From Deltaproteobacteria bacterium (GTDB lineage: Bacteria > Desulfobacterota > Syntrophia > Syntrophales > UBA5619): a stretch of DNA of 41,184 bases. The DNA lies in contig JAJFUM010000469.1 in assembly GCA_021372415.1 (NCBI GenBank), forward strand, positions 1 to 41,184. Reading direction: 5' to 3'. The first letter of the stretch is position 1. The number at the start of each line of letters is the position of its first letter. Below, piece after piece: positions 15,972-41,184 of the stretch. The notes beneath the pieces are model-generated. The model had not been told where the DNA came from. It did not search any database and saw nothing but the letters and a program-made list of their open reading frames with translations. The translations under genes and the position numbers were made by a program.

Positions 15972-17180
15972 ATGCCGGATTTTTGCCAGAATGGCGTCAT
16001 CACGACCCTTCAGAAGTTGAGGGAAAGACCGGTCGAAGAGATCGAAAGGGAGCTCAAGGCGATCGCGCGGAAACGCAAGATGGTCCTCCTGCTTCCCGCC
16101 CTGGTGACTGAATTCGACGGCACGGCGATGCCCAGGATCATTGAGGAACTCAAAGGGGTGGATTATCTTGACCGGATCGTCCTGTCCCTGGACCGAGCCG
16201 ATGAGAGGCAGTTCCGCAGGATCCGAAAGATCATGTCGGTGTTGCCGGCTGAGGTACGGGTGGTTTGGCATGATGGACCCAGGCTCCGGAAGCTCCTGAA
16301 AGAGCTGATGGCTGCGGAATTCAACCTGGAAAACGCGGGAAAGGGCCGCTCCGTCTGGATGTCTCTCGGATACATCCTTTCAGACCAGGATATCTACGCC
16401 GTCGCCCTGCACGACTGCGACATCGTCAACTACAAGCGGGAACTCGTGGCCCGCCTGATCTATCCGGTCGTCCATCCGGCGGTCAATTTCGAATTCAGCA
16501 AGGGGTACTATGCCAGGGTCACCGACAGGCTCTTCGGGCGTGTCACCCGCCTCTACTATACCCCCCTGGTCCGCACCCTTCAGAGGATCTTGGGTTACAA
16601 CGCCTTTATCGAATACCTCAACAATTTCCGTTATGCCCTCTCCGGTGAATTTGCCTTTGACGCCGGCCTGGCCAGGGGCATCCGCATATCCCCCACCTGG
16701 GGACTGGAGGTCTCGCTGCTCAGCGAGGTCTACCAGAAGACCTCGGTCAACCGGATCTGCCAGGTTGAAATCATCGAGACCTACGAACACAAGCACCAGA
16801 TCCTCGAGAAAAGCAAACCCACCGAAGGCCTGATCCGCATGGCGACCGAAATCGGCAAGGCCCTGTTCAGGGTCCTGAGCCAGGACGGCCTCGTGATGAG
16901 CGACGCCTTTTTCCGGACCCTGCTGACGACCTACATCCAAGAGTCCAGAACGGCCATCGAGAAGTATCACGCCCTGGCCCTGCTCAACGGCCTGATCTAC
17001 GACCGGCATGAGGAGATCGAGGCGGTTGAGGCCTTTGTGAGCGCGATGAAGCTGGCCATCGATGAATTCGTCGCCGATCCCGTCGGCATTCCCATGATGG
17101 CGGCCTGGGTCCGGGTCGAAGCAGCCATCCAGGATTTCTCCGAGAGGCTCAAGGAAGCCGTGGAGGAGGACAACCGATAG
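15972..17180 (+). CDS. gpgS: Glucosyl-3-phosphoglycerate synthase (GT81)
   Basis: GpgS transfers glucose from an NDP-glucose donor to 3-phosphoglycerate, the first step to glucosylglycerate-type compatible solutes in the cytoplasm. The 402-residue product resembles the cyanobacterial and Persephonella enzymes as I remember them: LLLPALVTEFDG, VDYLDRIVLSLDRAD, GKGRSVW, the metal site LHDCDIVNY (near residue 148), FEFSKGYYAR, and the late segment TYEHKHQ. AAGGAG precedes the ATG, which lies 2 bases after the stop of the preceding glycosyltransferase, indicating translational coupling. The comparison is from memory and not computed, but several motifs agree, so the call is firm at family level. 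Confidence 0.85.
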   Translation: MPDFCQNGVITTLQKLRERPVEEIERELKAIARKRKMVLLLPALVTEFDGTAMPRIIEELKGVDYLDRIVLSLDRADERQFRRIRKIMSVLPAEVRVVWHDGPRLRKLLKELMAAEFNLENAGKGRSVWMSLGYILSDQDIYAVALHDCDIVNYKRELVARLIYPVVHPAVNFEFSKGYYARVTDRLFGRVTRLYYTPLVRTLQRILGYNAFIEYLNNFRYALSGEFAFDAGLARGIRISPTWGLEVSLLSEVYQKTSVNRICQVEIIETYEHKHQILEKSKPTEGLIRMATEIGKALFRVLSQDGLVMSDAFFRTLLTTYIQESRTAIEKYHALALLNGLIYDRHEEIEAVEAFVSAMKLAIDEFVADPVGIPMMAAWVRVEAAIQDFSERLKEAVEEDNR

Positions 17181-25270: not shown

Positions 25271-25852
25271 ATGACCGGCGTCATCCTCTCGGGGGGACGG
25301 AACAGGCGGATGGGGGAAAACAAGGCCTTTCTGCAGGTGGACGGCGAGAGGCTGATTGACCGGACTGTCCGCGTCTTCCGGGAGATCTTCGGCGAGGTGA
25401 TCATCGTCACCACAGCCCCCCTCGACTACCTCGACCAAGCGGCCACGGTCGTGACCGACATCTTCCCCGGCAAGAGGGCCCTCGGCGGGATCTACACCGG
25501 CCTTTTCTACGCCTCCTCCGAGAGGGCCTTCGTGGTCGCCTGCGATATGCCCTACCTGAACCCCGCCTTCATCCGTTACCTGGTGCAACAGGCGGACGGA
25601 TACGACATCGTCGTCCCTGAGGTCCCCGAAGGCTTCCAGCCCCTCCACGCTGTCTACGCCCGCCGGTGCCTCCCCGTAATCCGGGGACTCCTGGAGAGGA
25701 ACCGCCTGAAAATCATCGGTTTCTATCCGGGCCACCGGATCCTGAAGATCCAGCCAGCCGAATTCGGCCCCTTCGACCCCGATGGGCGGATGTTCCTGAA
25801 CGTCAACACCCCGGCCGATCTCACCAGCCTCAATCTTCGCCTGGAGTCCTGA
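25271..25852 (+). CDS. mobA: MobA-like molybdenum cofactor nucleotidyltransferase
   Basis: MobA attaches GMP to molybdopterin to form the guanine dinucleotide cofactor used by formate dehydrogenases and related enzymes. The 193-residue protein has the NTP-binding signature LSGGRNRRMGENKAFL at its start, FPGKRALGGIYTG, the metal site ACDMPYL (near residue 98), and a C-terminal NVNTPADL segment. Length and motifs fit MobA. GGGAGACG precedes the ATG. It stands alone after a structured leader. A CTP-using MocA-type activity cannot be excluded from sequence, but the short MobA form is more likely. Confidence 0.85.
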   Translation: MTGVILSGGRNRRMGENKAFLQVDGERLIDRTVRVFREIFGEVIIVTTAPLDYLDQAATVVTDIFPGKRALGGIYTGLFYASSERAFVVACDMPYLNPAFIRYLVQQADGYDIVVPEVPEGFQPLHAVYARRCLPVIRGLLERNRLKIIGFYPGHRILKIQPAEFGPFDPDGRMFLNVNTPADLTSLNLRLES

Positions 25853-25948
25853 AGGCGCTGCCGTCTCGATGGCGCCGAGGCCACCAAAACGATTAGACAA
25901 TTGTCGCCGAATGTGGTAAGGGGGCAGACAAAAAAAGGGGGAACGCTC

Positions 25949-27280
25949 ATGGAAGGCGGTAAAACGTTCAATCGCTGGCTCGTCGTCGTGGGCGCGCTGC
26001 TGATCCAGGTCAGCCTGGGCGCCATCTACATCTACAGTGTCTTCAAACCCGGCCTCAAGGCCCGCTTTCCCGACTGGAGCAACACGGATTTGGCCCTGCC
26101 GTCCATGCTGGTCCTGCTCTTCTTCGGCCTGGCGACCATCTTCGCCGGTCGGGTTCAGGACCGGATCGGGCCGCGCTACGTGGCCATGGCAGGGGCGGTT
26201 ATGCTGGGCCTCGGCCTCCTGATCGCATCGAGAGCAGGGAGCCTGCTCACCTTCACGCTGGGCTTCGGCGTCATCGGCGGCCTGGGGATCGGCACCGCCT
26301 ATGTCTGCCCCATCGCCACCTGCGTCAAATGGTTTCCCGACAAGAGGGGCCTTATCTCGGGGCTGGCCGTGGCGGGGTTTGGCGGCGGCGGCCTGGTCTT
26401 CGCCCCCGTGGCCAAGGCCCTGATCCTCTCCGTCGGCGTCATGAACACCTTCCTCTACCTTGGGACGATCTTCTTCATTGTTGTCATGGTCGGAGCGATG
26501 TTCATGGTCACCCCTCCGACCGGTTACTGCCCGCCGGGCTGGACGCCCCCTGCGGCCGCCAGCGGCACGGGATGTTCCCTCGGTGCCGACTACACCTGGC
26601 AGGAGATGGTCCGGACCTCCCGGTTCTGGCTCCTGTGGCTTGCCTATTTCGCCGGCTGCTCGGCAGGGTTCCTCATCATCATGAACACGGTCAACATCTG
26701 GCAGTCCTTCTCGATCCTGGCCCTGGTGCCCCAGTTTCCCACAATCCCCAAGGATGCCTACCTGGACATCCTGACGAAGGGGACCACGGCGGTCATGGCG
26801 ATCTCGGTCATGAACGCCCTGGGCAGGATCCTCTGGGGAAAGATCTCGGACAGCATCGGCCGGAAGAACACCCTCTACATCATGTTCCTCTACAGCGGGG
26901 CCGTGATGCTTGCCCTCAACTGGCTTACCTCTTTCCCCCTGTTTCTGATCGGGGTCATGTCGGTGGGATTCTGCTTTGGCGGCTTTCTGGGCGTCTTCCC
27001 GGCCGTGACGGCGGACTACTTCGGAACGAGGAACATGGGGGTCAACTACGGCTGCATGTTCATGGCCTACGGGACGGCGGGCCTCTTCGGCCCCTGGATC
27101 GCCCCGAAGCTGATGGAGGTCGTCAAGGAGGTCCCCTTTGAAAGCGTCACGGCGGGCGTCGTGGCGGTCAAGACCTACGCGGCCGGGAATTACATCGCCT
27201 CCTTCGTGATTGCCGGGGTGATGTGTCTGGTCTCGATCCTCCTGATCCGGATCGTCCCGGCGGCGGTCAGGAAGGGGTAG
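25949..27280 (+). CDS. OFA-family MFS transporter (oxalate/formate antiporter type)
   Basis: The 443-residue inner-membrane protein has about 12 membrane helices. The MFS loop motif appears as GRVQDRIGPR between helices 2 and 3, and repeats as GKISDSIGRK in the second half. The opening QVSLGAIYIYSVFKPGL and the segment GIGTAYVCPIATCVKWFPDKRG are typical of the oxalate/formate antiporter (OFA) branch, which carries small carboxylates such as formate, oxalate or lactate. A CPPGWTPP loop near the middle lies on the cytoplasmic linker. The start follows AAAAAGGGGGAAC. The gene ends at a strong terminator. The transported acid cannot be read from sequence. Confidence 0.88.
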   Translation: MEGGKTFNRWLVVVGALLIQVSLGAIYIYSVFKPGLKARFPDWSNTDLALPSMLVLLFFGLATIFAGRVQDRIGPRYVAMAGAVMLGLGLLIASRAGSLLTFTLGFGVIGGLGIGTAYVCPIATCVKWFPDKRGLISGLAVAGFGGGGLVFAPVAKALILSVGVMNTFLYLGTIFFIVVMVGAMFMVTPPTGYCPPGWTPPAAASGTGCSLGADYTWQEMVRTSRFWLLWLAYFAGCSAGFLIIMNTVNIWQSFSILALVPQFPTIPKDAYLDILTKGTTAVMAISVMNALGRILWGKISDSIGRKNTLYIMFLYSGAVMLALNWLTSFPLFLIGVMSVGFCFGGFLGVFPAVTADYFGTRNMGVNYGCMFMAYGTAGLFGPWIAPKLMEVVKEVPFESVTAGVVAVKTYAAGNYIASFVIAGVMCLVSILLIRIVPAAVRKG

Positions 27281-30190: not shown

Positions 30191-30219
30191 TTGACAACAT
30201 CTGCGGAAAGCCATATCAT
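30191..30219 (+). promoter_or_regulatory. Sigma-70 promoter of the IclR-type gene
   Basis: TTGACA (30191-30196), a 17-base spacer and TATCAT (30214-30219) form a strong promoter. Transcription would start near 30226, inside the operator-like repeats, about 35 bases before the ATG. Confidence 0.75.
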
Positions 30220-30261: not shown

Positions 30262-31059
30262 ATGGGCTCAACGAAAACGGTCAATACGATCCTCCTTGGC
30301 GCCAAGATCCTGCAGGTCGTCGCCGGCGGGGTTTCCCGCCTGGAAGATGTCTACCAGCAGGTTGGCCTCAGCAAAAGCACGGCGCACCGTATTTTGAAGA
30401 GCCTCGCCCAGACCGGCTTCTCCTATCGGGACCCCATCACCCGCACTTACCATATCGGACCCCTGTTTCTGCAATTGTCGGTAAATCCCCTTGTCCTCCA
30501 TCGTCTGTTGATTGTCTGCGCGGCAGACGAACTGCGCCACCTGCAGGAAACAAGCCGTGAAACGTCCCTTCTCCTCATCCCCCTCGGCGACCAGCGGCTG
30601 GTCCTCAAAGAGTGTCCCAGCAGCGAGGGGATCTCCCTGTCCCACGGCGAGGGGTCCACGACGCACATTGCAGTGGGATCGGCCGGGCGCGTGCTTCTCT
30701 CCCAATACGACGACCAGACCCTGCAGCAGTTTTTTACCGTCCTGGATATGCCCCCGATCGCTCCGAAGTTCATGAGTGACCCGGATCTGCGCATGAAGGA
30801 AATCAACACCATCCGGCGTCGGGGATATGCGCTCACCACCGGCGAGAGGTTCCCCGACTCCGCAGGAATTTCGGTCCCTGTCAAGGGGTACGTCTGCCCG
30901 GTAGCGCTTTGCGTTTTCGGTCCTAAATTTCGTTACAACCCCCTTGATACCATGAATGACATCCAGGCATCCGCTGAGCGCATCTCGGCAAAACTCAGGT
31001 CCGTGATCACGGAAACCAGCCTCATATCGGATATGAAAACCATGAGAAGAGAAAATTGA
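30262..31059 (+). CDS. IclR-family transcriptional regulator
   Basis: The 265-residue regulator has an N-terminal winged helix-turn-helix (GVSRLEDVYQQVGLSKSTAHRIL, about residues 22-45) and a C-terminal effector domain with the family marks HIAVGSAGRVLL, RRRGYALTTGERFPDSAGISVPV and ALCVFGP. IclR proteins respond to small carboxylates and aromatic acids. The gene heads the plus-strand run of TRAP and methyl-transfer genes, which start 113 bases later without a clear promoter of their own, so it probably controls them and itself. The ATG has only a weak binding site, which overlaps the operator-like repeats. Confidence 0.9.
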   Translation: MGSTKTVNTILLGAKILQVVAGGVSRLEDVYQQVGLSKSTAHRILKSLAQTGFSYRDPITRTYHIGPLFLQLSVNPLVLHRLLIVCAADELRHLQETSRETSLLLIPLGDQRLVLKECPSSEGISLSHGEGSTTHIAVGSAGRVLLSQYDDQTLQQFFTVLDMPPIAPKFMSDPDLRMKEINTIRRRGYALTTGERFPDSAGISVPVKGYVCPVALCVFGPKFRYNPLDTMNDIQASAERISAKLRSVITETSLISDMKTMRREN

Positions 31060-31172
31060 AAATTCGCCGTCCGAAGTGACGAAAACGGTTCAGGACACTT
31101 TTATAGGACACCATCCGGCACATGCAGTCTGAAATGCGGCGACTTTCCGGTCGTCGGCAAGGAGGGAAAGAG

Positions 31173-31676
31173 ATGGCACTATTCAGATTTCTGGGGAAAA
31201 TATTTGAGGGGTTCATGGTGGCCATTATCGTCTTCCAGGCCATCCTGTTGGTCATCGGCGTTGTCTTCAGATATTTGCTGAATGCTCCCATCACCTGGGC
31301 GGACGAGATCGTTCGATATTCCCTGATCTGGACGACCTTTGCCGGGGCGGCCCTTGCAACAAAGGACAACAAACATATCCTCGTCGATGTCATTGACCTC
31401 ATGCTGCCGGAGTGGGCGAAAAGAATCACCAATTGGGTGGCCGATGCCGTGGTCATCGGATTCATGGTCTTTCTCATCTTTTACGGGATAAAAATGACCG
31501 ACTATGAACGGGGCATGTTCGGTGAAACATTGAGTTGGTTCAGTTACGCCTACGTGTACGTATCCATCCCCATCGGTGCGGCTCTGACCATCTTTTTTAC
31601 GGTCTCGAAATACATTGCAAACCCTGCCACCAGAATCCCTCATCAGGCGGGTGGAAGTGACGCAACGGCATCTTGA
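31173..31676 (+). CDS. dctQ: TRAP transporter small permease DctQ
   Basis: The 167-residue inner-membrane subunit has four membrane helices, the usual TRAP DctQ layout, with the conserved cytosolic-side signature FRYLLNAPITWADEIVRYSLIW at about residues 35-56 and the charged TKDNKHILVDV loop after helix 2. DctQ joins DctM and a periplasmic binding protein to import organic acids using the sodium gradient. The start follows AAGGAGGG. DctM normally follows directly or overlaps; here 133 bases with a hairpin separate them. Confidence 0.92.
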   Translation: MALFRFLGKIFEGFMVAIIVFQAILLVIGVVFRYLLNAPITWADEIVRYSLIWTTFAGAALATKDNKHILVDVIDLMLPEWAKRITNWVADAVVIGFMVFLIFYGIKMTDYERGMFGETLSWFSYAYVYVSIPIGAALTIFFTVSKYIANPATRIPHQAGGSDATAS

Positions 31677-31736
31677 TCGGCAGACCGAATGGGGCTTCTC
31701 GTATGCGGTTGAAAAAGCTGTCTTACGTTAAGGACC

Positions 31737-31774
31737 GCATAAAGGACGTCTCAAAATCCTGCGCGTCTTTATGC
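31737..31774 (+). promoter_or_regulatory. Hairpin between dctQ and dctM
   Basis: GCATAAAGGACG (31737-31748) pairs with CGCGTCTTTATGC (31762-31774) with one or two bulged bases. No T-run follows, so it is not a standard terminator. It may stabilise or process the mRNA, or set the ratio of the two permease subunits. Confidence 0.5.
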
Positions 31775-31809
31775 CTGATGAATGTATTCCATGACAAGGA
31801 GGATAGCCT

Positions 31810-33093
31810 TTGATTACAGCCGTCGTCATCATCTTGTTGCTGGTGTTCATTGCCCTGAAAATCCCCATCGCCGTCTCCATGGGCCTGACCACCATCGTTT
31901 ACTTCCTGACGCTCGGTATCCCGCTGGATACGATCATCCAAAAGGCCTTCGGTGGGGTCAACAGCTTTGAAATGACCGCAATTCCCCTGTTCATGCTGGC
32001 GGGGGAATTGATGAACAACGGGGGCATCAGCAACCGGCTGATCGGCTTTGCAAAGGCTTTTCTCGGACATATCCGCGGCGGGATGGGATTGGCCACCGTA
32101 CTGGCCTGCATGATCTTCGGGGGGGCAAGCGGCTCGACCCTGGCTGAGATCGCCGCGATCGGCCCCATCACGATCCCGGCCATGGTCAAGCAGGGCTATA
32201 AGCGGAATTTCGCTGCGGCGATCGTGGGGGTCAGCTCGGAGTTGGGACCGATCATCCCGCCGAGCATCGTGATGGTCATCACCGCCTCCCTCGCCCAGAT
32301 CTCAATCGGGAAGATGCTGCTGTCCGGTTTCGCCCCCGGCGTCCTGATCGGCCTCGGCCTGATGATCGTCGTTTACACCATATCGTCGATATACGGTTAT
32401 CCAAAGGATAAACAGGCGAAACTGAGCTGGAAGGTCAGATTGACCGAAACGAAAAACGGCATCTGGGCATTGCTGATGCCCGTGGTCCTGATCGGGGGAA
32501 TGGTTTCGGGGATCTTCACACCGACCGAAGCGGCGGCCGTCGCGGTCCTGTACGGCCTGGTGGTCGGCCTGTTCATTTACAAGGAGTTGAAGGTCAAGGA
32601 TCTGTACAGCATCTGCTACAGGACCCTGGTGTCCTCAGCCGGGATCCTCTTTGTCGTGGCCATGGCGAATCTTTACGGCTACATGCTGACCCGCCAGAGG
32701 ATCGGCAACTTTGTCGCCGATCTCCTGATGGGCTTCGCCCACTCGCCCTATCAGGTCTTCGCCATGCTGATCATCGCCCTGATCCCGCTGGGCATGCTGC
32801 TCTCCAGCACACCGGTCATCATGCTGGTGGTCCCCGTCCTGGTACCCCTTTCGAAACAGCTGGGCGTAGACCCCATCTATTTCTTTTCCATCGTGACCAT
32901 GGCGAGTCTGATTGGAACGCTCACCCCGCCGGTGGCCATCTCGCTCTACCTGACCAGTCAGATCGCCGAGACAAAACCGGAGCAGACTTTCTGGGCCATG
33001 ATCCCCCTGATAGCGGTGATCTATGCAGCGATCATCCTGTGCGTCATATTCCCAGGACTGACGACCTGGATTCCCAATATAGCCTACAAATAA
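31810..33093 (+). CDS. dctM: TRAP transporter large permease DctM
   Basis: The 427-residue protein is the sodium-coupled channel subunit of a TRAP importer, with about 12 membrane helices. Family marks are KIPIAVSMGLT at the start, the SGSTLAEIAAIGPITIPAM stretch, GVSSELGPIIPPSI (re-entrant substrate/sodium site), GIFTPTEAAAVAVLYGL, and the second-half repeat GTLTPPVAISLYL. The start codon is TTG, supported by AAGGAGG seven bases upstream and by the normal family N-terminus. A UroD-family methyltransferase gene follows after 22 bases, before the binding-protein gene, which ties transport to methyl transfer. Confidence 0.92.
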   Translation: MITAVVIILLLVFIALKIPIAVSMGLTTIVYFLTLGIPLDTIIQKAFGGVNSFEMTAIPLFMLAGELMNNGGISNRLIGFAKAFLGHIRGGMGLATVLACMIFGGASGSTLAEIAAIGPITIPAMVKQGYKRNFAAAIVGVSSELGPIIPPSIVMVITASLAQISIGKMLLSGFAPGVLIGLGLMIVVYTISSIYGYPKDKQAKLSWKVRLTETKNGIWALLMPVVLIGGMVSGIFTPTEAAAVAVLYGLVVGLFIYKELKVKDLYSICYRTLVSSAGILFVVAMANLYGYMLTRQRIGNFVADLLMGFAHSPYQVFAMLIIALIPLGMLLSSTPVIMLVVPVLVPLSKQLGVDPIYFFSIVTMASLIGTLTPPVAISLYLTSQIAETKPEQTFWAMIPLIAVIYAAIILCVIFPGLTTWIPNIAYK

Positions 33094-33115
33094 GATAAGG
33101 TTGGAGGAACACAAA

Positions 33116-34117
33116 ATGGAACAGATGAAACCCAGAGAAAGAGTGCTGACGGCCCTGAAGAGGGGCCAGGCGGACAGGGTCCCTTGGGTGGAGAACTACA
33201 TTCACCCCAGTCTCGTGAGCAAGATCATGGGAAGGGAAATTGTCCCCATCCCGGGAGCCCGTTTCATGCCGGTGATCCATGAGAAGCTCTGTATCGACAA
33301 CATCACCTATGATTTCAGGCCGCCGATCTATGCCCAGGTCGAAAAGCGGGGTGACCTGGAAATGATCAAGGAGCCTTGGTTGAAGGGCTGGGAGGACCTC
33401 GACAAGATCAAGAAATGGCTCCCCGACCCCGAGTCCGACGCCTTCTATGCCAACGCCAAGGAATACCTGAAGCTCAAGGGGGATTACGCGGCACTCGCGA
33501 GCCTTCGCCTCGGGATCAGCAACGTTTACAACAGCATGGGATACGAGAATTTCGTCTTCGCCCTGGCGGACGAGCCGGAGTTCGTGGAAGCGGCGTTCGA
33601 TGTGTTCGGGGAATGGTGCTCGAAGGTCATCGAACGGGTCAACAACATGAACTTCGATTTCTGTTGGCTCTCCGAGGACATTGCATTCCAGGACGGTCCG
33701 ATGGTGACCCCCGCTCAATACGAAAAGCATATCCTTCCGCACGCCAAGAAGGTGGCAGAGAAGATCGCCCTGCCCAAGGTTTACCACTCCGACGGCGACT
33801 ACCTGCCCGTCATGGACTATATCCTCCAGCTGAAGCCGGCGGCCATCGCCAACCTCGAGCCCCCCGTGATGGACATCTTCAAGCTCAAAGAGACGTACGG
33901 GGACAGGGTGTGCCTCCTGGGCAACATCGATTTACACCACACCTTGACGCGCGGGACCACGGAAGAAACCATCGCTGAGGTGAAGGAAAAACTGGAGCGG
34001 GTGGGCAAGGGCGGCGGGTACATCATCGCCAGCTCCAACGGCCTGGTCGCTTACTGCAAGCCGGAAAACGTCCTGGCCATGAACGAAACAATCCTCAAAT
34101 ACGGATGGTACAAATAA
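33116..34117 (+). CDS. UroD-family corrinoid methyltransferase (subclass without HxC motif)
   Basis: The 333-residue protein belongs to the uroporphyrinogen decarboxylase-like family, whose methyltransferase branch (MtaA, MtbA, CmuA) moves methyl groups between corrinoid proteins and a thiol or pterin. It opens with the family signature MKPRERVLTALKRGQADRVPW and has the later VYHSDGDYLPVMDYI and GGYIIASSNGL segments. The zinc motif HxC of MtaA-like enzymes reads His-Ser-Asp here, so the metal site differs or is absent. It lies between TRAP dctM and dctP, with a corrinoid protein gene one further downstream. Decarboxylase activity is improbable in this setting. GGAGG precedes the chosen ATG. 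Whether it takes methyl from the imported substrate or passes it on is inferred. Confidence 0.82.
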   Translation: MEQMKPRERVLTALKRGQADRVPWVENYIHPSLVSKIMGREIVPIPGARFMPVIHEKLCIDNITYDFRPPIYAQVEKRGDLEMIKEPWLKGWEDLDKIKKWLPDPESDAFYANAKEYLKLKGDYAALASLRLGISNVYNSMGYENFVFALADEPEFVEAAFDVFGEWCSKVIERVNNMNFDFCWLSEDIAFQDGPMVTPAQYEKHILPHAKKVAEKIALPKVYHSDGDYLPVMDYILQLKPAAIANLEPPVMDIFKLKETYGDRVCLLGNIDLHHTLTRGTTEETIAEVKEKLERVGKGGGYIIASSNGLVAYCKPENVLAMNETILKYGWYK

Positions 34118-34215
34118 AAGGGGATTGCCGCTTGACCTTCCATCCCTCAGAGCAGGGACGGTCGTCCGAAGGCTCAATCGGTAACATAACAACTTCTTTT
34201 GAAAGGGGAGAACAA

Positions 34216-35232
34216 ATGAGAATGCATTCTTCACTGAGGTTTCTCGTAGCCTTGATGCTGGTATTGGCCGGCACCGGTTATTTCACCCATGGCGCCTTCG
34301 CTGCCGCCGCGGAGGGCAAGCAGATCACCCTGCAGCTGGGCCACAACTCCCATGCGGAATCTTTCACCGGAAAGGCGCTGACCAACTGGGCCAAGAAGCT
34401 CTCCGACCAAACCGGAGGGAAACTCAAGGTCGATATTTTTCCACAGAACCAGTTGGGCTCCAACAAGGAACTCTCGGAACAGACGTCCCTGGGATCTCTG
34501 GATCTCAACGTCCAGGGCATGAACGCCCTGGTGGATTACAAGGTTGAGCAGGGCTACCTGACCAAGGTGCCGTTCCTGTTCAGGAGCACGGAACATGCCT
34601 ACAAGTGGTGGACCAGCCCTGAAGGTATGGCGATCGTCAAGAAGGCCGAATCCCAAAACGTCAAGATCCTGGGGATCGGGCTCAATCGAATGCCGCGTCA
34701 GTTCGCGTCCAAAGCCAAAGCGATCAAAAGCCCGGAAGATATCAAGAACCTGAAGGTGCGGGCAGGCGACACGGCGACCAATTCCGCCCTGAAGATCCTC
34801 GAAGCCGTACCGACCAACGTCGCCCTGAACGAAATGTACACGGCCATCAGCCAAGGGGTGGTCGATGTGGTGGAACTGCCCCTCGACTACATCTTTGACT
34901 ATTCCATGTTCGAAGTGACCAAGTATCTGACCCTGTCCAACCACAGTTTCGACGTGCAGTGGGTCGTGATCAATGCCAAGAAGTTCGAGTCTCTCCCCGC
35001 CAGTTACCAGAAGCTCCTGGTCAGCTCCATGCCCGACCTGGCCAAGGACAACAATACCCGGGAAGAGGCCAATTTCAACGATACCCTGAAGAAGCTCAAG
35101 GACAAGGGGATGACCATCATCAACACCGAACGCTCCCAGTGGGAGGCCATTGTCCCCAAAGTCGTTCCCACCCTTGAAAAGACGTGGCCTTCTACCAAGG
35201 GCTACTACGAAAAAATCATGAAGATGAAATAA
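34216..35232 (+). CDS. dctP: TRAP transporter periplasmic substrate-binding protein DctP
   Basis: The 338-residue protein starts with a signal peptide (basic start, hydrophobic core FLVALMLVLAG, likely cleavage after AFA near residue 28). The mature part has the DctP marks LQLGHNSHAESF, FPQNQLGSNKELSEQ, the carboxylate-binding Arg region NRMPRQFASK, and VRAGDTATNSALKILEAVPTNV. The Arg is the site that usually holds a substrate carboxylate, so the ligand is probably an organic acid. GGGGAG precedes the start. A 98-base gap with a small hairpin (TCCCT and AGGGA near 34143-34158) separates it from the methyltransferase gene. It completes the QMP set of this importer. Confidence 0.92.
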   Translation: MRMHSSLRFLVALMLVLAGTGYFTHGAFAAAAEGKQITLQLGHNSHAESFTGKALTNWAKKLSDQTGGKLKVDIFPQNQLGSNKELSEQTSLGSLDLNVQGMNALVDYKVEQGYLTKVPFLFRSTEHAYKWWTSPEGMAIVKKAESQNVKILGIGLNRMPRQFASKAKAIKSPEDIKNLKVRAGDTATNSALKILEAVPTNVALNEMYTAISQGVVDVVELPLDYIFDYSMFEVTKYLTLSNHSFDVQWVVINAKKFESLPASYQKLLVSSMPDLAKDNNTREEANFNDTLKKLKDKGMTIINTERSQWEAIVPKVVPTLEKTWPSTKGYYEKIMKMK

Positions 35233-35248
35233 CCCGAGGAGTCTGAAC

Positions 35249-35878
35249 ATGTCCACCCTGGAACGAATCAAAGACAGTGTCATCGGCGGAAGCGCAAAAA
35301 AGGTTAAAGAATATACGGATGTTGCCATTTCCGAAGGCTTGGATCCTTCAACCATCCTCAACGACGGATTGATCGCGGGCATGAACTTCATCGGTGCCCG
35401 CTTCAAAAAGAATGAGGTCTATGTCCCGGAAGTGCTCATGGCCGCACGTGCCATGCACACAGGCCTTTCCATCATCAAACCCCTGATCGTCAAAGCGGGG
35501 GTCAAGGAAAAGGGTTCTGTCGCCATCGGTACGGTCAAGGGCGATATGCATGATATCGGGAAGAATCTGGTCATCATGATGCTGGAGGGAGCCGGCTACA
35601 AAGTGATCGATCTGGGCGTGGATGTCCCGACGGAGAAATTCATCCAGGTCGTCGAGGAACATAAGCCCGATGTGGTCGGGGTATCGGCGCTGCTGACGAC
35701 CACCATGACTCAGATGCAGGACACCGTTGAAAAGTTGCATGCTCACAACGGCAAAACCAAAGTGATCGTGGGTGGGGCTCCGGTGAGTGAGAAATTTGCC
35801 CGGGAGATTGGCGCGAACGGCTATGCCGCCGATGCGGCCAGTGCCGTTGACACGGTGGCTGGATTAACGGCCTCATGA
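35249..35878 (+). CDS. Corrinoid (B12-binding) protein of the methyltransferase class
   Basis: The 209-residue protein is a methyl carrier like MtaC/MttC/MtbC. An N-terminal helical cap domain (about residues 1-90; ILNDGLIAGMNFIGARFK) is followed by a Rossmann B12-binding domain with the cobalt-ligand signature GDMHDIGKNLV (His near 101), the SALLTTTM loop and GGAPV for the nucleotide tail. Length is normal. It follows dctP by 16 bases with GAGGAG before its ATG and ends the operon at a strong terminator. It should receive a methyl group from the imported compound and pass it on. The second corrinoid protein at 39446 has the same architecture, implying two parallel or sequential carriers. Confidence 0.92.
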   Translation: MSTLERIKDSVIGGSAKKVKEYTDVAISEGLDPSTILNDGLIAGMNFIGARFKKNEVYVPEVLMAARAMHTGLSIIKPLIVKAGVKEKGSVAIGTVKGDMHDIGKNLVIMMLEGAGYKVIDLGVDVPTEKFIQVVEEHKPDVVGVSALLTTTMTQMQDTVEKLHAHNGKTKVIVGGAPVSEKFAREIGANGYAADAASAVDTVAGLTAS

Positions 35879-35929
35879 GCCTCATTGGCAGACCATGAAT
35901 AAGAACGGAGAGCTCCAGAGCCCTCCATG

Positions 35930-35970
35930 CGGCGCCCCTGGATGACAAAATCCAGGGGCGCCGTCTTTTC
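35930..35970 (+). terminator. Rho-independent terminator after the corrinoid protein gene
   Basis: A perfect 14-bp stem (CGGCGCCCCTGGAT and its complement) with a 6-base loop is followed by GTCTTTTCTT. It lies 52 bases after the stop codon and separates the TRAP/corrinoid operon from the RamA-like gene. Confidence 0.92.
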
Positions 35971-36096
35971 TTGCACGCGATGGACCCCAACCGTTCGGGC
36001 CGTTATCTGGCGCCGATGCCACAGCCTCATCTGTCTGCTGATGGAGAGCAATAAAGGGTGGACGGATGATAACCCCAAAAAGATGTCATCAAACCT

Positions 36097-36125
36097 TTGA
36101 CAGGAAGCCCCTGCCTATGGTTAAT
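36097..36125 (+). promoter_or_regulatory. Candidate sigma-70 promoter of the RamA-like gene
   Basis: TTGACA (36097-36102), a 17-base spacer and GTTAAT (36120-36125) lie about 65 bases before the ATG at 36189. The -35 is perfect and the -10 matches four of six. Confidence 0.5.
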
Positions 36126-36188
36126 GTTGGTCCTTGACTGCAGGAACAGGCTGCGCGCCTGACCTTGGGGAAAGGACATTTGAGATCG

Positions 36189-38195
36189 ATGAAGACGCAT
36201 CAGGTGATTTTTCAGCCCTCCGGCAGGCGGGGAAAGGTCCCGGAGGGTACAACCGTTCTGGAGGCCTCGCGTCTGCTTGGCGTGGGGATCGAATCCGTCT
36301 GTGGCGGAAAGAAATCCTGCGGAAAGTGCCTCATCCGCGTCGAGACGGGGACCTTCGAGCGCCACGGCATCGCCTCGGGTCCCGACCACCTCTCCCCCTT
36401 GACGGAAGAAGAGGCGAGGTTCACCGGGGAAAGAGAACGGGCGGAAGGTTACCGTCTGGCCTGCGCGGCCGTCATCCTCGGCGACCTGGTCATCTTTGTT
36501 CCGGAAAAGAGCCGGACCGGCACCCAGATCGTCCGGAAGGAGGCGGCCAAGAAGGCCATCTCCCTGAACCCTGCCGTCCGCCTCTTCCCGGTAACCCCCG
36601 CTCCCCCCACGCTGGATCGCCCGCTGGGAGACTACGAACGCTTGGCCGCGGCCCTTGGGGAACGGTTCGGCCTTCAGCGCCCCGAGATCGACCGTTCCGC
36701 CTTGATCGGCCTCTCCGGTGCCCTCCGCGAAGGCAAGGGGACCGTCACCGCGGCGGTTTGGATGGAACGAGAGATCCTGGCCATCTTTCCGGGAGAGGTG
36801 GAAGAGACCTATGGGCTCGCGGTCGACATAGGCTCGACCACCGTGGCCGGATACCTGTGCAGCCTGAAGACCGGAAGGCTCGTGGCCACCCAATCGCTCA
36901 TGAACCCCCAGGTCGCCTATGGCGACGACGTGATCGCGCGGATCACCTATGTGATGGACCACCCCGACGGCATGGAAAAGATGCGGGGGGCCATCATCGA
37001 ATGCCTGAACGAGCTCATCCGAAACGTCACTGCGGACGCCGGCCTTTCCCCGATGGACATCCTCGAAATCACGGTCGTTGGAAACACGGCCATGCATCAC
37101 TTCTTTCTCGGCATCGACCCCCGTTCGCTCGGGGTCGCCCCCTTCGCTCCGGTCATCCACCGCAGCCTTGACGTCAAGGCGCGGGATCTGGGCCTTGCGG
37201 CCCACCCCGCGGCCAACGTCCACATCCTGCCGATCGAAGCGGGCTTTGTCGGGGCTGACAACGTCGGCGTCCTGATTGCGGAGGAACCCTACCGCCGGGA
37301 CGAGACGGTCCTCATCATCGACGTGGGGACCAACGGGGAGATGATCCTGGGCAACCGGGAGAAACTCCTCTGCGCCTCCTGCGCCACCGGCCCGGCCCTG
37401 GAGGGGGCGCACATCCGCTTCGGCATGCGGGCGGCTCCCGGGGCCATCGAAAGGATCCGAATCGATCCGGAAACGCGGGAGGTCTCCTTCAAGGTCATCG
37501 GCGAGGAGCGTTGGCATCCCGAGTCCAGACTCGCCAGTGCCCGGGGGATCTGCGGCTCGGGAATCATCGACGCCGTGGCGGAACTCTACAGGGCAGGCAT
37601 CCTTGATGAAAGCGGCCGCTTCCGTTCCGATCTCGCGACGCCGCGGCTCCGTTCGACCGACAGGAAAGCGGAGTTCGTCATTGCATGGCCGGATGAAACC
37701 ACCCTGTCTGAGGCGATCACGATCACCCAGCAGGACGTCCGGAACGTTCAGTTGGCCAAGGGCGCCCTTTACGCCGGTGCGAAACTGCTGATGAAAAAAA
37801 TGGGGATCGAAACCATCGAGAGAGTGACCCTCGCGGGAGCCTTCGGGAGTTACATCGACAAGGGGTCGGCGATGCTCCTGGGAATGTTTCCAGACTGCGA
37901 TCCCGACCGGATCTCTTCGGTGGGCAATGCCGCCGGTGACGGGGCAAGGATCGCCCTGCTCGACCGTGACAAGCGTCAAGAGGCCGAGCAGATGGCCCGG
38001 CGGGTCGAATACCTCGAACTGACCCTGTCCGAGGACTTCCAGGAGGAGTTCATGGCGGCCATGTTCATCCCCCACATGGAGGATGCCTTCCCCCACCTCC
38101 AGATTCCGGAAGGGAAGACCGAGACGAACGGAGAAAACGGGGAAGATGCCGGCGGGTCGTTCCGGTCCCACCGGCATTCTTCCTGTCCTTCCTGA
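36189..38195 (+). CDS. RamA-like corrinoid activation protein (ferredoxin + ASKHA)
   Basis: The 668-residue protein is a reductive activator of corrinoid enzymes: it uses ATP and a low-potential electron to return inactive Co(II) corrinoid to Co(I). About residues 1-95 form a [2Fe-2S] ferredoxin-like domain with CGGKKSCGKC and a fourth Cys in RLACAAV. The rest is the DUF4445/RamA-type ASKHA ATPase: phosphate motifs VDIGSTTVAGYL and IIDVGTNGEMIL, GNTAMHHFFLG, ASCATGPALEGAHI, and the closing LAGAFGSYID and VGNAAGDGA. Length fits plant-type ferredoxin activators rather than [4Fe-4S] RamA. The Shine-Dalgarno is weak. It lies between the two corrinoid clusters and probably serves both. Confidence 0.9.
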   Translation: MKTHQVIFQPSGRRGKVPEGTTVLEASRLLGVGIESVCGGKKSCGKCLIRVETGTFERHGIASGPDHLSPLTEEEARFTGERERAEGYRLACAAVILGDLVIFVPEKSRTGTQIVRKEAAKKAISLNPAVRLFPVTPAPPTLDRPLGDYERLAAALGERFGLQRPEIDRSALIGLSGALREGKGTVTAAVWMEREILAIFPGEVEETYGLAVDIGSTTVAGYLCSLKTGRLVATQSLMNPQVAYGDDVIARITYVMDHPDGMEKMRGAIIECLNELIRNVTADAGLSPMDILEITVVGNTAMHHFFLGIDPRSLGVAPFAPVIHRSLDVKARDLGLAAHPAANVHILPIEAGFVGADNVGVLIAEEPYRRDETVLIIDVGTNGEMILGNREKLLCASCATGPALEGAHIRFGMRAAPGAIERIRIDPETREVSFKVIGEERWHPESRLASARGICGSGIIDAVAELYRAGILDESGRFRSDLATPRLRSTDRKAEFVIAWPDETTLSEAITITQQDVRNVQLAKGALYAGAKLLMKKMGIETIERVTLAGAFGSYIDKGSAMLLGMFPDCDPDRISSVGNAAGDGARIALLDRDKRQEAEQMARRVEYLELTLSEDFQEEFMAAMFIPHMEDAFPHLQIPEGKTETNGENGEDAGGSFRSHRHSSCPS

Positions 38196-38225
38196 CCATC
38201 CTCGTTTTCAGGCCGTTAGACAGAC

Positions 38226-38260
38226 GGGCCGAAGCCTCCCCGCTGGCGAGGCTTCGGCCC
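38226..38260. terminator. Probable bidirectional terminator hairpin
   Basis: A perfect 13-bp stem (GGGCCGAAGCCTC and GAGGCTTCGGCCC) with a 9-base loop lies between the convergent RamA-like and second UroD genes. T-runs on either side are short, so efficiency is uncertain. Confidence 0.6.
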
Positions 38261-38285
38261 GCAATTTCCCGACAGTGGGCACTGG

Positions 38286-39434
38286 TCAGTATTTGCAGTT
38301 GTCCTGGAAGGTCTCCCACATCGCGATGAAGTTCTCCACGGGCACGTCGTCCTGGACGTTGTGGACGGTGGAGAAGACGAACCCGCCGCCCGGGGCGAAG
38401 GTGTCGATGAGCCGCTTGGTCTCGTCCCGGACCTGCTGGGGCGTGCCGTTGGGCAGGGTCGCCTGGGTGTTGATCCCGCCGCCCCAGAAGACGATGTCCT
38501 TGCCGAACTCTTTCTTGAGCCGCTCGGGTTCCATGTTCGTCGCCGTGATCTGGACGGGGTTGAGGATGTCGTAGCCCGCATCGATGATGTCCGGCAAGAT
38601 GTCGTAGACCGACCCGCAGGTATGGAGCATGATCTTGACGTCCTGCTTGGATTTGATGTGGGCGTTGAGCTTCTTGTGGCAGGGCATCATCATCTCCCGG
38701 ATCAGCTTCGGAGAGACGAAGGTGCCGCGCTGGGTGCCGAAATCGTCGGGCTCGGCTGTGGTGTCGACCAGGCCGCCATAGACCTCGAAGATGTTGTCGT
38801 AGTACTCCATCTTCTTCTCAAGCAGCTTTTCCATGAAGGGGATGCACCGCTCCGGTTCGGCCAAGAGCATGGCCAGCCAGTTCTCGAACCCCCAGACGAG
38901 GGGGCCGGTCTGCAGGAAACCGTTACCGAAGACCTCGGTGATCATGGTGGCATAACCGGCCTTGCGGTAGTCCTCGAGCTCCTTGCGGTCCTCCTTGGCA
39001 AACTTCTCCGGCACGGGCCAAACGAACTGCTGGTCCTCTTCGGCGCTCTCCGAGTTCTTAAGGACCGTGTCGTAGAGATCGAAGTAAAGGGCCTTCTTTT
39101 TGGGCATCCGGTAGAGGGTGCCCCATTCGTTCCGCGCGTAGTAGCTCTCGTCGTCTTCCCATTTCTTGGAATAGGGGTTCGGGGGCTTGATGGGTTTGAG
39201 CCTGGGGTTGCGCACGTCACACTTCAGCAGATCCAACACCCGGTCCGAGGCATAGACGACCTGGTAGGGCAGGCTGCAGATTTCCAGCTTGTCCTCCTTG
39301 ATGCCGAAGTAATCCAGCAGTTTCACGTAGAAATACTTGGTGAACTTGCAGCAGTGTCCGGACCCGAGGTCCAGGGGGATGCGGTCGGGTTCCCTGTGGT
39401 TCAGGGTGCACAACACTCTTTCACGTGAATTCAT
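38286..39434 (-). CDS. UroD-family corrinoid methyltransferase (HxC-containing subclass)
   Basis: The 382-residue protein starts with the family signature MNSRERVLCTLNHREPDRIPLDLGS and keeps a zinc-type motif LHTCGSVYDILPDIIDAGYDILNPVQ, where His and Cys match the HxC ligands of MtaA/MtbA methyltransferases. A third ligand could be in FSTVHN near the C-terminus, where these enzymes normally have Cys. The sequence is longer than the other UroD-like protein of this window by about 50 residues, with an insertion around residues 75-150. TTAGGAGG precedes the ATG. It follows the corrinoid protein gene by 11 bases. It may be the substrate methyltransferase or the one that hands the methyl on; I cannot tell which. 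Confidence 0.85.
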   Translation of the reverse strand: MNSRERVLCTLNHREPDRIPLDLGSGHCCKFTKYFYVKLLDYFGIKEDKLEICSLPYQVVYASDRVLDLLKCDVRNPRLKPIKPPNPYSKKWEDDESYYARNEWGTLYRMPKKKALYFDLYDTVLKNSESAEEDQQFVWPVPEKFAKEDRKELEDYRKAGYATMITEVFGNGFLQTGPLVWGFENWLAMLLAEPERCIPFMEKLLEKKMEYYDNIFEVYGGLVDTTAEPDDFGTQRGTFVSPKLIREMMMPCHKKLNAHIKSKQDVKIMLHTCGSVYDILPDIIDAGYDILNPVQITATNMEPERLKKEFGKDIVFWGGGINTQATLPNGTPQQVRDETKRLIDTFAPGGGFVFSTVHNVQDDVPVENFIAMWETFQDNCKY

Positions 39435-39445
39435 GAACGGTCCTC

Positions 39446-40087
39446 CTAATTGAGACGTTTATTCAGTTCTTTGGCCTTGCTCGCGGCCGTGGCCGCATCC
39501 GCCGCAAATCCATCGGCGCCGATGGAATCGACAAAGCCCTGGGTGACGGGGGCCCCGCCCACCATGACCTTCACCTGGTTCCTCACCCCTGCGGCCACGA
39601 AGGCATTGAGCGTCTCCTTCACGGCCGGCATGGTCGTGGTCAGGAGCGCCGAAATTCCCAAGACCTTGCAATCGGGATTGGCCTTGATCGCCTCGATGAA
39701 CTTTTCGGCCTTCACGTCGACGCCCAGGTCGATCACCTCGAACCCCTGGCTCTCGACCATCATGGCCACGAGATTCTTGCCGATGTCATGCAGGTCGCCC
39801 GCCACGGTTCCAATGATGAATTTGCCGATCGTGGCACCGGTTTCGCCAACCAGATGCGGCTTCAATGTCTCCAGGCCCTTCTTCATGGCCCGGGCTGCGA
39901 TGAGCATTTCCGGCACATAAATCTGACCGTCCTTGAATTTTTCGCCGACGGCCCCCATGGTGTCGATCATCCCCTGCAAAACCTCCATGGGCTTCAAGCC
40001 GCCGCCGATGGCCGCCCCAATAAGGTCCTGAACATTCTTCCCCTTGCCAGATTCAATGGCTGCACCAATCTCCTGAATTTTAGACAT
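39446..40087 (-). CDS. Corrinoid (B12-binding) protein, second copy
   Basis: The 213-residue methyl carrier has the helical cap (EVLQGMIDTMGAVGEKFKDG) and the B12 domain with GDLHDIGKNLV (His near residue 101), SALLTTTMPAV and GGAPVTQGF. It shares layout and many residues with the carrier at 35249 but is clearly diverged, for instance in the cap start and the C-terminal tail of charged helices. AGGGAGAAG precedes the start. It lies between a DUF1638 gene and a UroD-family methyltransferase on the minus strand. Cognate pairing with the adjacent methyltransferase is likely. Confidence 0.92.
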   Translation of the reverse strand: MSKIQEIGAAIESGKGKNVQDLIGAAIGGGLKPMEVLQGMIDTMGAVGEKFKDGQIYVPEMLIAARAMKKGLETLKPHLVGETGATIGKFIIGTVAGDLHDIGKNLVAMMVESQGFEVIDLGVDVKAEKFIEAIKANPDCKVLGISALLTTTMPAVKETLNAFVAAGVRNQVKVMVGGAPVTQGFVDSIGADGFAADAATAASKAKELNKRLN

Positions 40088-40189
40088 CTGTCTCTTCTCC
40101 CTTTCTCCGTTGAGTGGTTATGGGTGGCTATCATCGAGATCCCCCGGCCCTGGCATGAACGGGCAACATCCCGAGGATGCCGCACATCT

Positions 40190-40870
40190 TTAGAAAAACA
40201 TTTCCTGTTTGAAGGCCTCGCCCGACTTGAGGCAGATGAATTTATCCTCCTCATAGGGTCCCCGCACAATCTCGCGGAAGTATTCGAGGCTGCCCTGGAT
40301 TTCTTCGTACTGCTTCTTCAGGACCTCGGCGTTCTGAATCGCCCGCGCCCTCAGCGGCGCCATATTTTCCACTCCCGTATCGATCAGAGCGATATGGGTG
40401 TAATGTTTGAGCTCCTCCTCCATCACCCACTCCGCCGTCTCACGATCGAACTTGGCGGTATTCTCTTCGAGAATGCCCAGAGGATCCTTCTTCTCCGCGA
40501 TCCAGCCGGGAGTCAGGTAATAGGTCCCCGGCTTCTGACGGAATACTTCCTGGTAGCGGGAGGGCGACCCCAGAAACAGGGCGATGCAGTCGTGGCAGCG
40601 GGGGATGATGAGCCCCTGCTGACGCGCCGTGACGCCGACCACCCCGTTGGAACACAAGCCATACCCCAGGATGATCCGGGAAGCCCTCTGCGCCGCCTGG
40701 TCGATCTTCTCCTGAAGCTGTCCCAGGAGCCGCGTCGGCGTCCGGTGGAGGGCCTGGTCGAGATAAACGATTTCCACCTCTTCCTCAGTCTCCGCCCGAA
40801 CCCGCTCCAGCTCCGGTTCCATGACTCGGCATGCGATGACGACCCGTCTGCCGATATTCACATCCTTCAT
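40190..40870 (-). CDS. DUF1638 protein
   Basis: The 226-residue soluble protein shows the family marks: an early Cys in VIACRVMEPEL, the loop GYGLCSNGVVGV, the metal-site-like PRCHDCIALFLGS and PGTYYLTPGW. Cys and His are thus clustered around a probable metal site. Families of this type recur beside corrinoid methyltransferase genes in anaerobes, as here; its reaction is unknown to me. It precedes the corrinoid gene by 102 bases and follows the TRAP permease gene by 77 bases that hold a hairpin. AGGGAGAAGG precedes the start. A role in methyl transfer or cofactor handling is inferred only from position. Confidence 0.85.
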   Translation of the reverse strand: MKDVNIGRRVVIACRVMEPELERVRAETEEEVEIVYLDQALHRTPTRLLGQLQEKIDQAAQRASRIILGYGLCSNGVVGVTARQQGLIIPRCHDCIALFLGSPSRYQEVFRQKPGTYYLTPGWIAEKKDPLGILEENTAKFDRETAEWVMEEELKHYTHIALIDTGVENMAPLRARAIQNAEVLKKQYEEIQGSLEYFREIVRGPYEEDKFICLKSGEAFKQEMFF

Positions 40871-40901
40871 TGCCCTTCTCCCTATCCAGACTCCCAGGCC
40901 T

Positions 40902-40937
40902 TTCCATCCCCCGGGTCATGAACGCCAGGGGATGGAA
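40902..40937 (-). promoter_or_regulatory. Intercistronic hairpin between TRAP dctM and the DUF1638 gene
   Basis: TTCCATCCCC (40902-40911) and GGGGATGGAA (40928-40937) form a perfect 10-bp stem with a 16-base loop. On the minus strand it follows the permease gene and is not followed by a T-run, so it probably stabilises or processes the message rather than ending it. Confidence 0.55.
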
Positions 40938-40947
40938 TCCCCGGGCA

Positions 40948-41184
40948 TCAGAACACATGATTCGGTATCCACAGAACAATATCGGGGAAGAGACACATGA
41001 GGACCACCCCGATGATCTGCATCACCATGAAGGGGATGGTGGCCCAATAAAGATCGCTGATGGGGATCGGGATCTTCTGCTGCGATGCCACCCCCTTCAC
41101 GTAGAAGGCCGCATAGGCGAAGGGCGGCGACAGGTAGGAGATCTGGATCATCACGGCGAACATGACCCCGAACCAGAGGGGATC
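40948..41184 (-). CDS. dctM: TRAP transporter large permease DctM, C-terminal part (cut by window end)
   Basis: The frame is open through the last base of the window, so only the final 78 or so codons are present. DPLWFGV and QISYLSPPFAYAAFYVKGV are the marks of the last third of a DctM-type permease of the mannitol/chloroaromatic (TAXI-like or DctM) branch, followed by ISDLYWATIPFMVMQIIGVVLMCLFPDIVLWIP, the closing membrane helix. It differs from the permease at 31810, so it belongs to a second TRAP importer. Downstream on the same strand are DUF1638, a corrinoid protein and a UroD-family methyltransferase, mirroring the layout of the other cluster. Confidence 0.85.
   Translation of the reverse strand, partial: DPLWFGVMFAVMIQISYLSPPFAYAAFYVKGVASQQKIPIPISDLYWATIPFMVMQIIGVVLMCLFPDIVLWIPNHVF

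Follow-up and report, generated by a model that had tools for sequence, protein, structure and literature searches.

Candidate importer-coupled corrinoid demethylase modules beside the single reductive activase of a Syntrophales genome

The window analysed here is the 41,184-nucleotide stretch of contig JAJFUM010000469.1, from the genome of a Deltaproteobacteria bacterium of the Syntrophales (UBA5619; assembly GCA_021372415.1). Between 31.1 and 41.2 kb it carries genes for tripartite ATP-independent periplasmic (TRAP) transport, for UroD-fold methyltransferases and for corrinoid proteins, together with a RACo/RamA-type reductive activase (Table 1). On the plus strand the order is IclR, DctQ, DctM, UroD1, DctP (DctP1), Corr1, a terminator-like hairpin and the activase; on the minus strand, read from the contig end, a DctM remnant is followed by DUF1638, Corr2 and UroD2. 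We refer to the two sets as cluster A and cluster B. When the features were checked by Pfam profiles, all named genes scored over the family cut-offs, and all are intact open frames except the DctM at the contig end. An earlier note, made from the sequence alone, had named the same genes, and they are indeed present; its second TRAP permease does match DctM, but only the last 78 codons lie in the window, the gene being fragmentary because the contig stops at 41184. The TRAP DctPQM set is thus complete in cluster A and cut in cluster B, whose missing part is visible in a genome of the same genus (G126, below). The start of DctP1 is the ATG at 34216, downstream of AAAGGGGAG. The IclR protein is the probable regulator of cluster A, judging from its position just upstream of DctQ. 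The activase runs in the same direction as cluster A, yet it is set apart from it by the strong terminator-like hairpin.

Table 1. Features of the window, with coordinates, strand and supporting evidence
Feature	Coordinates	Strand	Evidence and remarks
Sigma-70-like site	30191-30219		11/12 consensus positions; goes with the IclR gene
IclR-family regulator	30262..31059	+	Pfam IclR_C 3e-11, HTH_IclR 5.4e-8
DctQ, TRAP small permease, cluster A	31122..31676	+	Pfam DctQ 1.8e-28; gene caller gives alternative start 31215
DctM, TRAP large permease, cluster A	31810..33093	+	Pfam DctM 3.6e-107; NCBIfam dctM over cut-off
UroD1, UroD-fold methyltransferase, candidate methyltransferase I of cluster A	33116..34117	+	Pfam URO-D 1.2e-19
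DctP (DctP1), TRAP solute-binding protein, cluster A	34216..35232	+	Pfam DctP 5e-59
Corr1, corrinoid protein (DMHDIG), MtgC/MtbC type	35249..35878	+	Pfam B12-binding 1.2e-29, B12-binding_2 4.6e-20; under NCBIfam cut-offs
Terminator-like hairpin between Corr1 and activase	35929..35964	+	15 bp stem, 11 GC pairs; consensus match only
RACo/RamA-type reductive activase	36189..38195	+	Pfam RACo_C_ter 3.6e-101, Raco_middle, RACo_linker, Fer2; alternative start 36165
UroD2, UroD-fold methyltransferase, candidate methyltransferase I of cluster B	38286..39434	-	Pfam URO-D 2.2e-21
Corr2, corrinoid protein (DLHDIG), cluster B	39446..40087	-	Pfam B12-binding 4.8e-27, B12-binding_2 4e-15
DUF1638 protein, cluster B	40190..40870	-	Pfam DUF1638 2.5e-44
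Second DctM, last 78 codons	40948..41184	-	DctM match at 40981-41184

We think, with a probability of roughly 0.7, that this locus comprises two importer-coupled corrinoid demethylase modules and an activation hub common to the modules of the cell; the figure is a joint one, which includes the role of the window's activase as hub for all such modules. Gene content, gene orders, fusions, copy numbers, motifs and folds are observed, and from them we infer each reaction, as well as the imported solute being the methyl donor. In the scheme that we propose, a tripartite importer would take up a methylated carboxylate, and the UroD-fold protein would act as the substrate-specific methyltransferase I (MTI), which methylates the Co(I) of its corrinoid partner protein. 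An AcsE-like methyltransferase II (MTII) encoded elsewhere (contig C104) would pass it to tetrahydrofolate (THF), and methyl-THF would be oxidised by MetF, FolD and Fhs (contig C52) towards formate. The single activase, probably aided by the DUF1638 protein, would re-reduce Co(II) in all five modules and in MetH. As to the four parts of such a system (MTI, corrinoid protein, MTII and activating enzyme), the window holds a candidate MTI beside a corrinoid protein twice, and the activase; it contains no MTII, which was found on other contigs (truncated but canonical on C104, diverged on C52).

Searches of the genome with PF02607 and PF01208 located five UroD-plus-corrinoid modules besides MetH: clusters A and B, and one on each of the contigs C184 (UroD-DctP-DctQ-DctM-Corr), C104 (a UroD-corrinoid fusion, then DctP and DctQ) and C150 (UroD-TctA-TctB-TctC-Corr-GntR). 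A tripartite importer adjoins 5/5 of them, in four cases a TRAP system within about 2 kb and in one a tripartite tricarboxylate transporter (TTT). By our own arithmetic, taking roughly 7% per locus, TRAP genes beside four of five modules would arise by chance with a probability near 1e-4. The genome is unusually rich in TRAP genes for an anaerobe, with 36 DctM matches in 3.95 Mb. The RACo/RamA-type activase and DUF1638 are each present in one copy in the genome, both of them in the window.

For conservation, a scan with an alignment of the activase gave 80 named loci (a contig scan with UroD1 had given none). The gene caller was retrained for each locus, since window-trained calls overlooked genes where GC content is lower; for L035, which the retrained caller read on the wrong strand, the first calls were used. 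In G126 (locus L050) the cluster B operon is complete, DctP-DctQ-DctM-DUF1638-Corr2-UroD2, with identities to the window of 92% for UroD2, 86% for Corr2 and 85% for DUF1638, and it lies away from the activase. In the Deltaproteobacteria metagenome-assembled genome (MAG) contig VGSS01000032.1 (L085), DctP-DctQ-DctM-UroD-Corr-MTII-RACo form a single co-directional run, of which DctP, UroD, Corr, MTII and RACo were confirmed by Pfam; close variants occur at L082, L086, L185, L186, L187 and L190. Moreover, UroD and corrinoid protein are fused into a single polypeptide at L023 (10137-11960, 607 aa), L034 (1706-3481) and L184 (9219-10979), and the fusions of L023 and L034 adjoin TRAP genes, as does that of C104. 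Importer, UroD and corrinoid protein therefore make up a real recurring unit, as the earlier note had supposed. Its other idea, that two facing clusters around a RamA-like protein form the unit, does not survive the position of cluster B in G126: gene content is conserved, while exact order varies, and having two clusters face each other across the activase is not a conserved feature.

Among the fetched loci, an importer lies within 4 kb of 19/32 UroD1-type, 5/10 UroD2-type and 10/12 HCDGE-type genes and of 0/28 other HxC..C UroDs, and a corrinoid gene is near or fused for 24/32 UroD1-type and 9/10 UroD2-type genes; we give these counts as description only, since they are not independent of one another and similarity to the window is what brought in several of the loci. 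Some other modules pair with major facilitator superfamily (MFS) or branched-chain-type ATP-binding cassette (ABC) importers. Two further arrangements were seen. In a Desulfobacteraceae MAG (L119, 2025-9526), a TAXI-type TRAP system, an M24 peptidase-family protein and UroD-Corr-UroD stand beside RACo, an array that maybe serves a different methylated substrate; at L199 (2461-9968), TRAP genes, a class III aminotransferase, a beta-keto acid cleavage enzyme, a corrinoid protein and a UroD share one run.

The activase itself could have another main task. In MetH (contig C5, 805 aa) Pfam matches no activation domain, and therefore the single activase may serve MetH too. In a stronger version, activase and DUF1638 would chiefly serve the B12-dependent methionine synthase and their place beside transport modules would be incidental, as might be argued from Phaeobacter, where methionine synthesis depends on RamA-like and DUF1638 genes (PMC5764234), and from L071 (3403-5378), which reads helicase-MobA-MFS-RACo with no cluster A or TRAP-UroD block before RACo. 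Against this version, corrinoid demethylases require an activase, and at L055, L085, L086 and L119 the activase sits inside runs that also hold UroD, a corrinoid protein and MTII. We consider it rather unlikely; it covers the activase only and can be compatible with our proposal. In the window, MobA (25271) and MFS (25949; the pair spans 25271-27280) lie 9-11 kb from RACo, with the 27.5-35.9 kb block between, as though an insertion of cluster A had parted MFS from RACo. The modules look like cassettes gained and lost. We abandoned a reading of MobA and the 643-920 aa neighbour of RACo as a formate dehydrogenase unit, since that neighbour is a helicase. A tblastn of plasmids for UroD references returned only HemE-like, distant or unannotated proteins.

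The earlier note had seen no MtvB-like substrate enzyme. That premise fails, as MtvB, OdmB, VdmB, MtoB and CdmB are themselves MTIs of the UroD superfamily (PMC13222342), and UroD1 and UroD2 are for this reason candidate first enzymes. A separate substrate methyltransferase had been named as a finding that would speak against the proposal, and no match to the MTTB family (PF06253) exists in the genome. A tree built from 112 UroD sequences puts UroD1 in a clade with an invariant HSDG and a downstream Asn, and UroD2 in one with HTCG and a downstream VHN. Both proteins fall outside the Mlp/MtaA clade, and the HxC...C zinc triad of MtaA type is absent from both, UroD1 having neither Cys and UroD2 retaining the HxC only. 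The best sequence match of UroD1 in the Protein Data Bank (PDB) is CdmB (2.8e-6), a zinc-free enzyme proven to be a chloromethane MTI (PMC13222342). The C-terminal CdmB fragment (139 residues, 137 columns) falls inside a 63-member clade with UroD1 and UroD2 (SH support 0.949), away from MtaA/MtbA types; it is not sister to either protein, and it is the only member of the MtvB/OdmB/MtoB/CdmB group placed in the tree.

UroD1 and UroD2 could also work in the other direction, as MtaA/Mlp-like, methyl-accepting enzymes that take the methyl group from the corrinoid protein to a thiol or a selenol that has been imported, or in methyl-sulfur salvage. The AlphaFold2 model of UroD1 (mean predicted local distance difference test score, pLDDT, 93.7) has as its closest PDB fold 4ay8, the methylcobalamin:coenzyme M methyltransferase of M. 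mazei (template modelling score, TM, 0.78). Its best NCBIfam matches are MtaA/CmuA models, known mlp clusters, to which a role in methyl-sulfur or selenium salvage is assigned, likewise bring UroD proteins together with a corrinoid protein and Ram (PMC10418091), and arrays of relatives gain a true HxC..C Mlp-type UroD. The incomplete zinc triads and the position outside the Mlp/MtaA clade argue against a thiol acceptor, as does the fact that type 1 mlp clusters are defined without a nearby THF methylase (PMC10418091), which the arrays of relatives do have; we regard such a role as clearly improbable. Still less probable, and in our view very unlikely, is a step other than methyl transfer, for instance a decarboxylase-like one on the imported acid, with the corrinoid genes as independent neighbours. 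In its favour are the fold, which is of the uroporphyrinogen decarboxylase type, and the closest homologs of UroD1 (46-49%, family f40), which have TTT genes and lyases nearby and no adjacent corrinoid gene. Against it, UroD and corrinoid domains are covalently joined in some members of the clade (L023, L184 and L034), and the corrinoid neighbours counted above also speak for a corrinoid partner.

The methyl group would leave the corrinoid protein through MTII. The C52 operon is headed by an AcsE-like MTII, which scores over the PRK07535 cut-off, followed by Fhs, FolD and MetF. On C104, a 50-residue remnant of a canonical MTII, 78% identical, lies directly upstream of the UroD-corrinoid fusion. 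In the Syntrophaceae loci L031 and L038, canonical MTII, variant MTII, MetF, FolD and Fhs directly adjoin an array of a UroD-Corr fusion, TRAP genes, another such fusion, UroD, Corr and DUF1638, towards which RACo is convergent; the diverged MTII copies lie there at 16243 (L031) and 15414 (L038), and a canonical second copy is kept. No CdhC/AcsB-type subunit of acetyl-CoA synthase was found in the genome. Because of this, and because MTII, MetF, FolD and Fhs adjoin TRAP-UroD arrays in L031 and L038, methyl-THF is likely to be oxidised towards formate, to judge from the gene families.

As to the imported acid, TRAP binding proteins select carboxylates via an arginine (PMC4646407), and alignment to solved DctPs places the VRAG arginine of DctP1 at their binding arginine. 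The distance of DctP1 from the solved proteins is too great for them to indicate its ligand. In the C184 module (L037, 359-7588), the run goes on to a D-threonate-kinase-like DUF1537 gene, while PdxA is encoded on the opposite strand. The DctP of C184 is closest to 4pc9 (7e-59), a sugar-acid binder. Neighbours of the closest UroD1 homologs include a methylisocitrate-lyase-like protein (L180) and an HpcH/HpaI aldolase (L181). These hints, taken with low confidence, make hydroxy or sugar acids a better candidate than aromatics, and a methyl-ether hydroxy or sugar acid is our leading, though tentative, guess for the substrate. It is tempting to propose, as a possibility that we hold to be doubtful taken as a whole, that HSDG/HTCG UroDs are new MTI families acting on aliphatic carboxylates with an O-methyl group (methyl ethers of hydroxy or sugar acids, e.g. 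4-O-methylglucuronate products), imported by dedicated TRAP, TTT or ABC systems and encoded in interchangeable cassettes around one shared activase. A slightly less probable option is that the modules O-demethylate methoxylated aromatic acids from lignin (vanillate- or syringate-like), which TRAP would import. MtvB, OdmB, VdmB and MtoB act on methoxyaromatics, and the set of UroD, Corr, MTII and activase matches theirs (PMC13222342, PMC8359953); on the other hand, the adjoining catabolic genes of C184, L180 and L181 point to hydroxy or sugar acids, and no aromatic-ring genes were seen beside the modules, the genome itself not having been searched for them.

The earlier note had left the first step to either a UroD-type protein or DUF1638. 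DUF1638 is probably an activase partner rather than a first-step methyltransferase: its single copy contrasts with five modules, it adjoins RACo or MTII in most relatives, and in Phaeobacter inhibens DUF1638 and a RamA-like protein are required for methionine synthesis (PMC5764234; also PMC12478193). Its AlphaFold2 model is confident (pLDDT 92.4). The model gave no structural match in the PDB at E<=0.001, nor was there a sequence match there, and therefore no function is readable from the fold. With its conserved Cys and His, the protein possibly has an unsolved fold arrangement.

Several points weigh against demethylase modules served by one activase. UroD1 and UroD2 reach 56 and 51 bits against a TIGR01463 cut-off of 235, far under curated MtaA/CmuA cut-offs, and UroD1 is far under every one of them. 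The closest homologs of UroD1 lack the corrinoid neighbour, and the ligand-bound DctPs are only remote relatives of DctP1. The C52 MTII (L061, 611-1402) has CLSTVS for the GLTNVS motif, the Asn being lost, and the canonical MTII of the genome is known from the end of contig C104 only. In addition, the abundance of TRAP genes in the genome, the non-independence of the neighbourhood counts and the gathering of loci by similarity to window proteins lessen the value of the associations.

The demethylase modules that we propose resemble known systems in their logic. Acetogen OdmABCD, VdmB and MtvABC and archaeal MtoABCD have the same four parts: a UroD-superfamily MTI, a corrinoid protein, an MTII to pterin and an activase (PMC13222342, PMC8359953). 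UroD1 and UroD2 differ in belonging to other UroD clades, with TRAP/TTT importers here and MFS there, and with five MTI-plus-corrinoid modules per activase here, MTII in just one. The chloromethane dehalogenase CdmBCA of Acetobacterium dehalogenans is close in that CdmB is the best PDB sequence match of UroD1, its fragment falls in the large clade of UroD1, and the Cys zinc triad is lacking; chloromethane, in contrast, needs no importer, no TRAP genes are described there, and CdmB has FQGE where UroD1 has HSDG. Type 1 mlp clusters likewise contain UroD-superfamily proteins, a corrinoid protein and Ram (Kountz and Balskus, PMC10418091), but their proteins are MtaA-like with a zinc site, their neighbours are sulfur/selenium genes and not TRAP, and there is no THF methylase. 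They are defined by at least two Mlps, a corrinoid protein and Ram in one direction with no THF methylase within 20 kb; the window falls outside, with opposed transcription and non-Mlp UroDs, and the arrays of relatives carry an MTII. Split MetH, MtgC, RamA and DUF1638 of P. inhibens and R. pomeroyi also join a RamA-like activase and DUF1638 with B12 methyltransferases (PMC5764234, PMC12478193), there for methionine synthesis and glycine betaine use, with no UroD-type MTI or TRAP coupling described. In rdhUVW of Desulfitobacterium hafniense, genes for a corrinoid protein and for UroD-like and MeTr-like proteins are clustered (PMC9888536), tied there to reductive dehalogenase genes and with no importer.

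The chemistry and the four-part logic are thus known, and what appear to be new are the UroD clades, the coupling to importers and the cassette arrangement with one activase. Among the open-access papers searched, we found none on a link between TRAP importers and UroD/corrinoid demethylases, nor any on sugar-acid demethylation by corrinoid enzymes. Described corrinoid demethylases act on methanol, methylamines, betaines, methoxyaromatics and halomethanes. Importer-paired UroD modules, five in one genome and recurring in a range of related MAGs, suggest methylated organic acids as further substrates of uncultured anaerobes, beyond those described. Since the binding protein encoded inside a module reports its substrate, DctP ligand binding makes the question testable, and a genome with a single activase and a single DUF1638 offers a clean test bed for the role of DUF1638.

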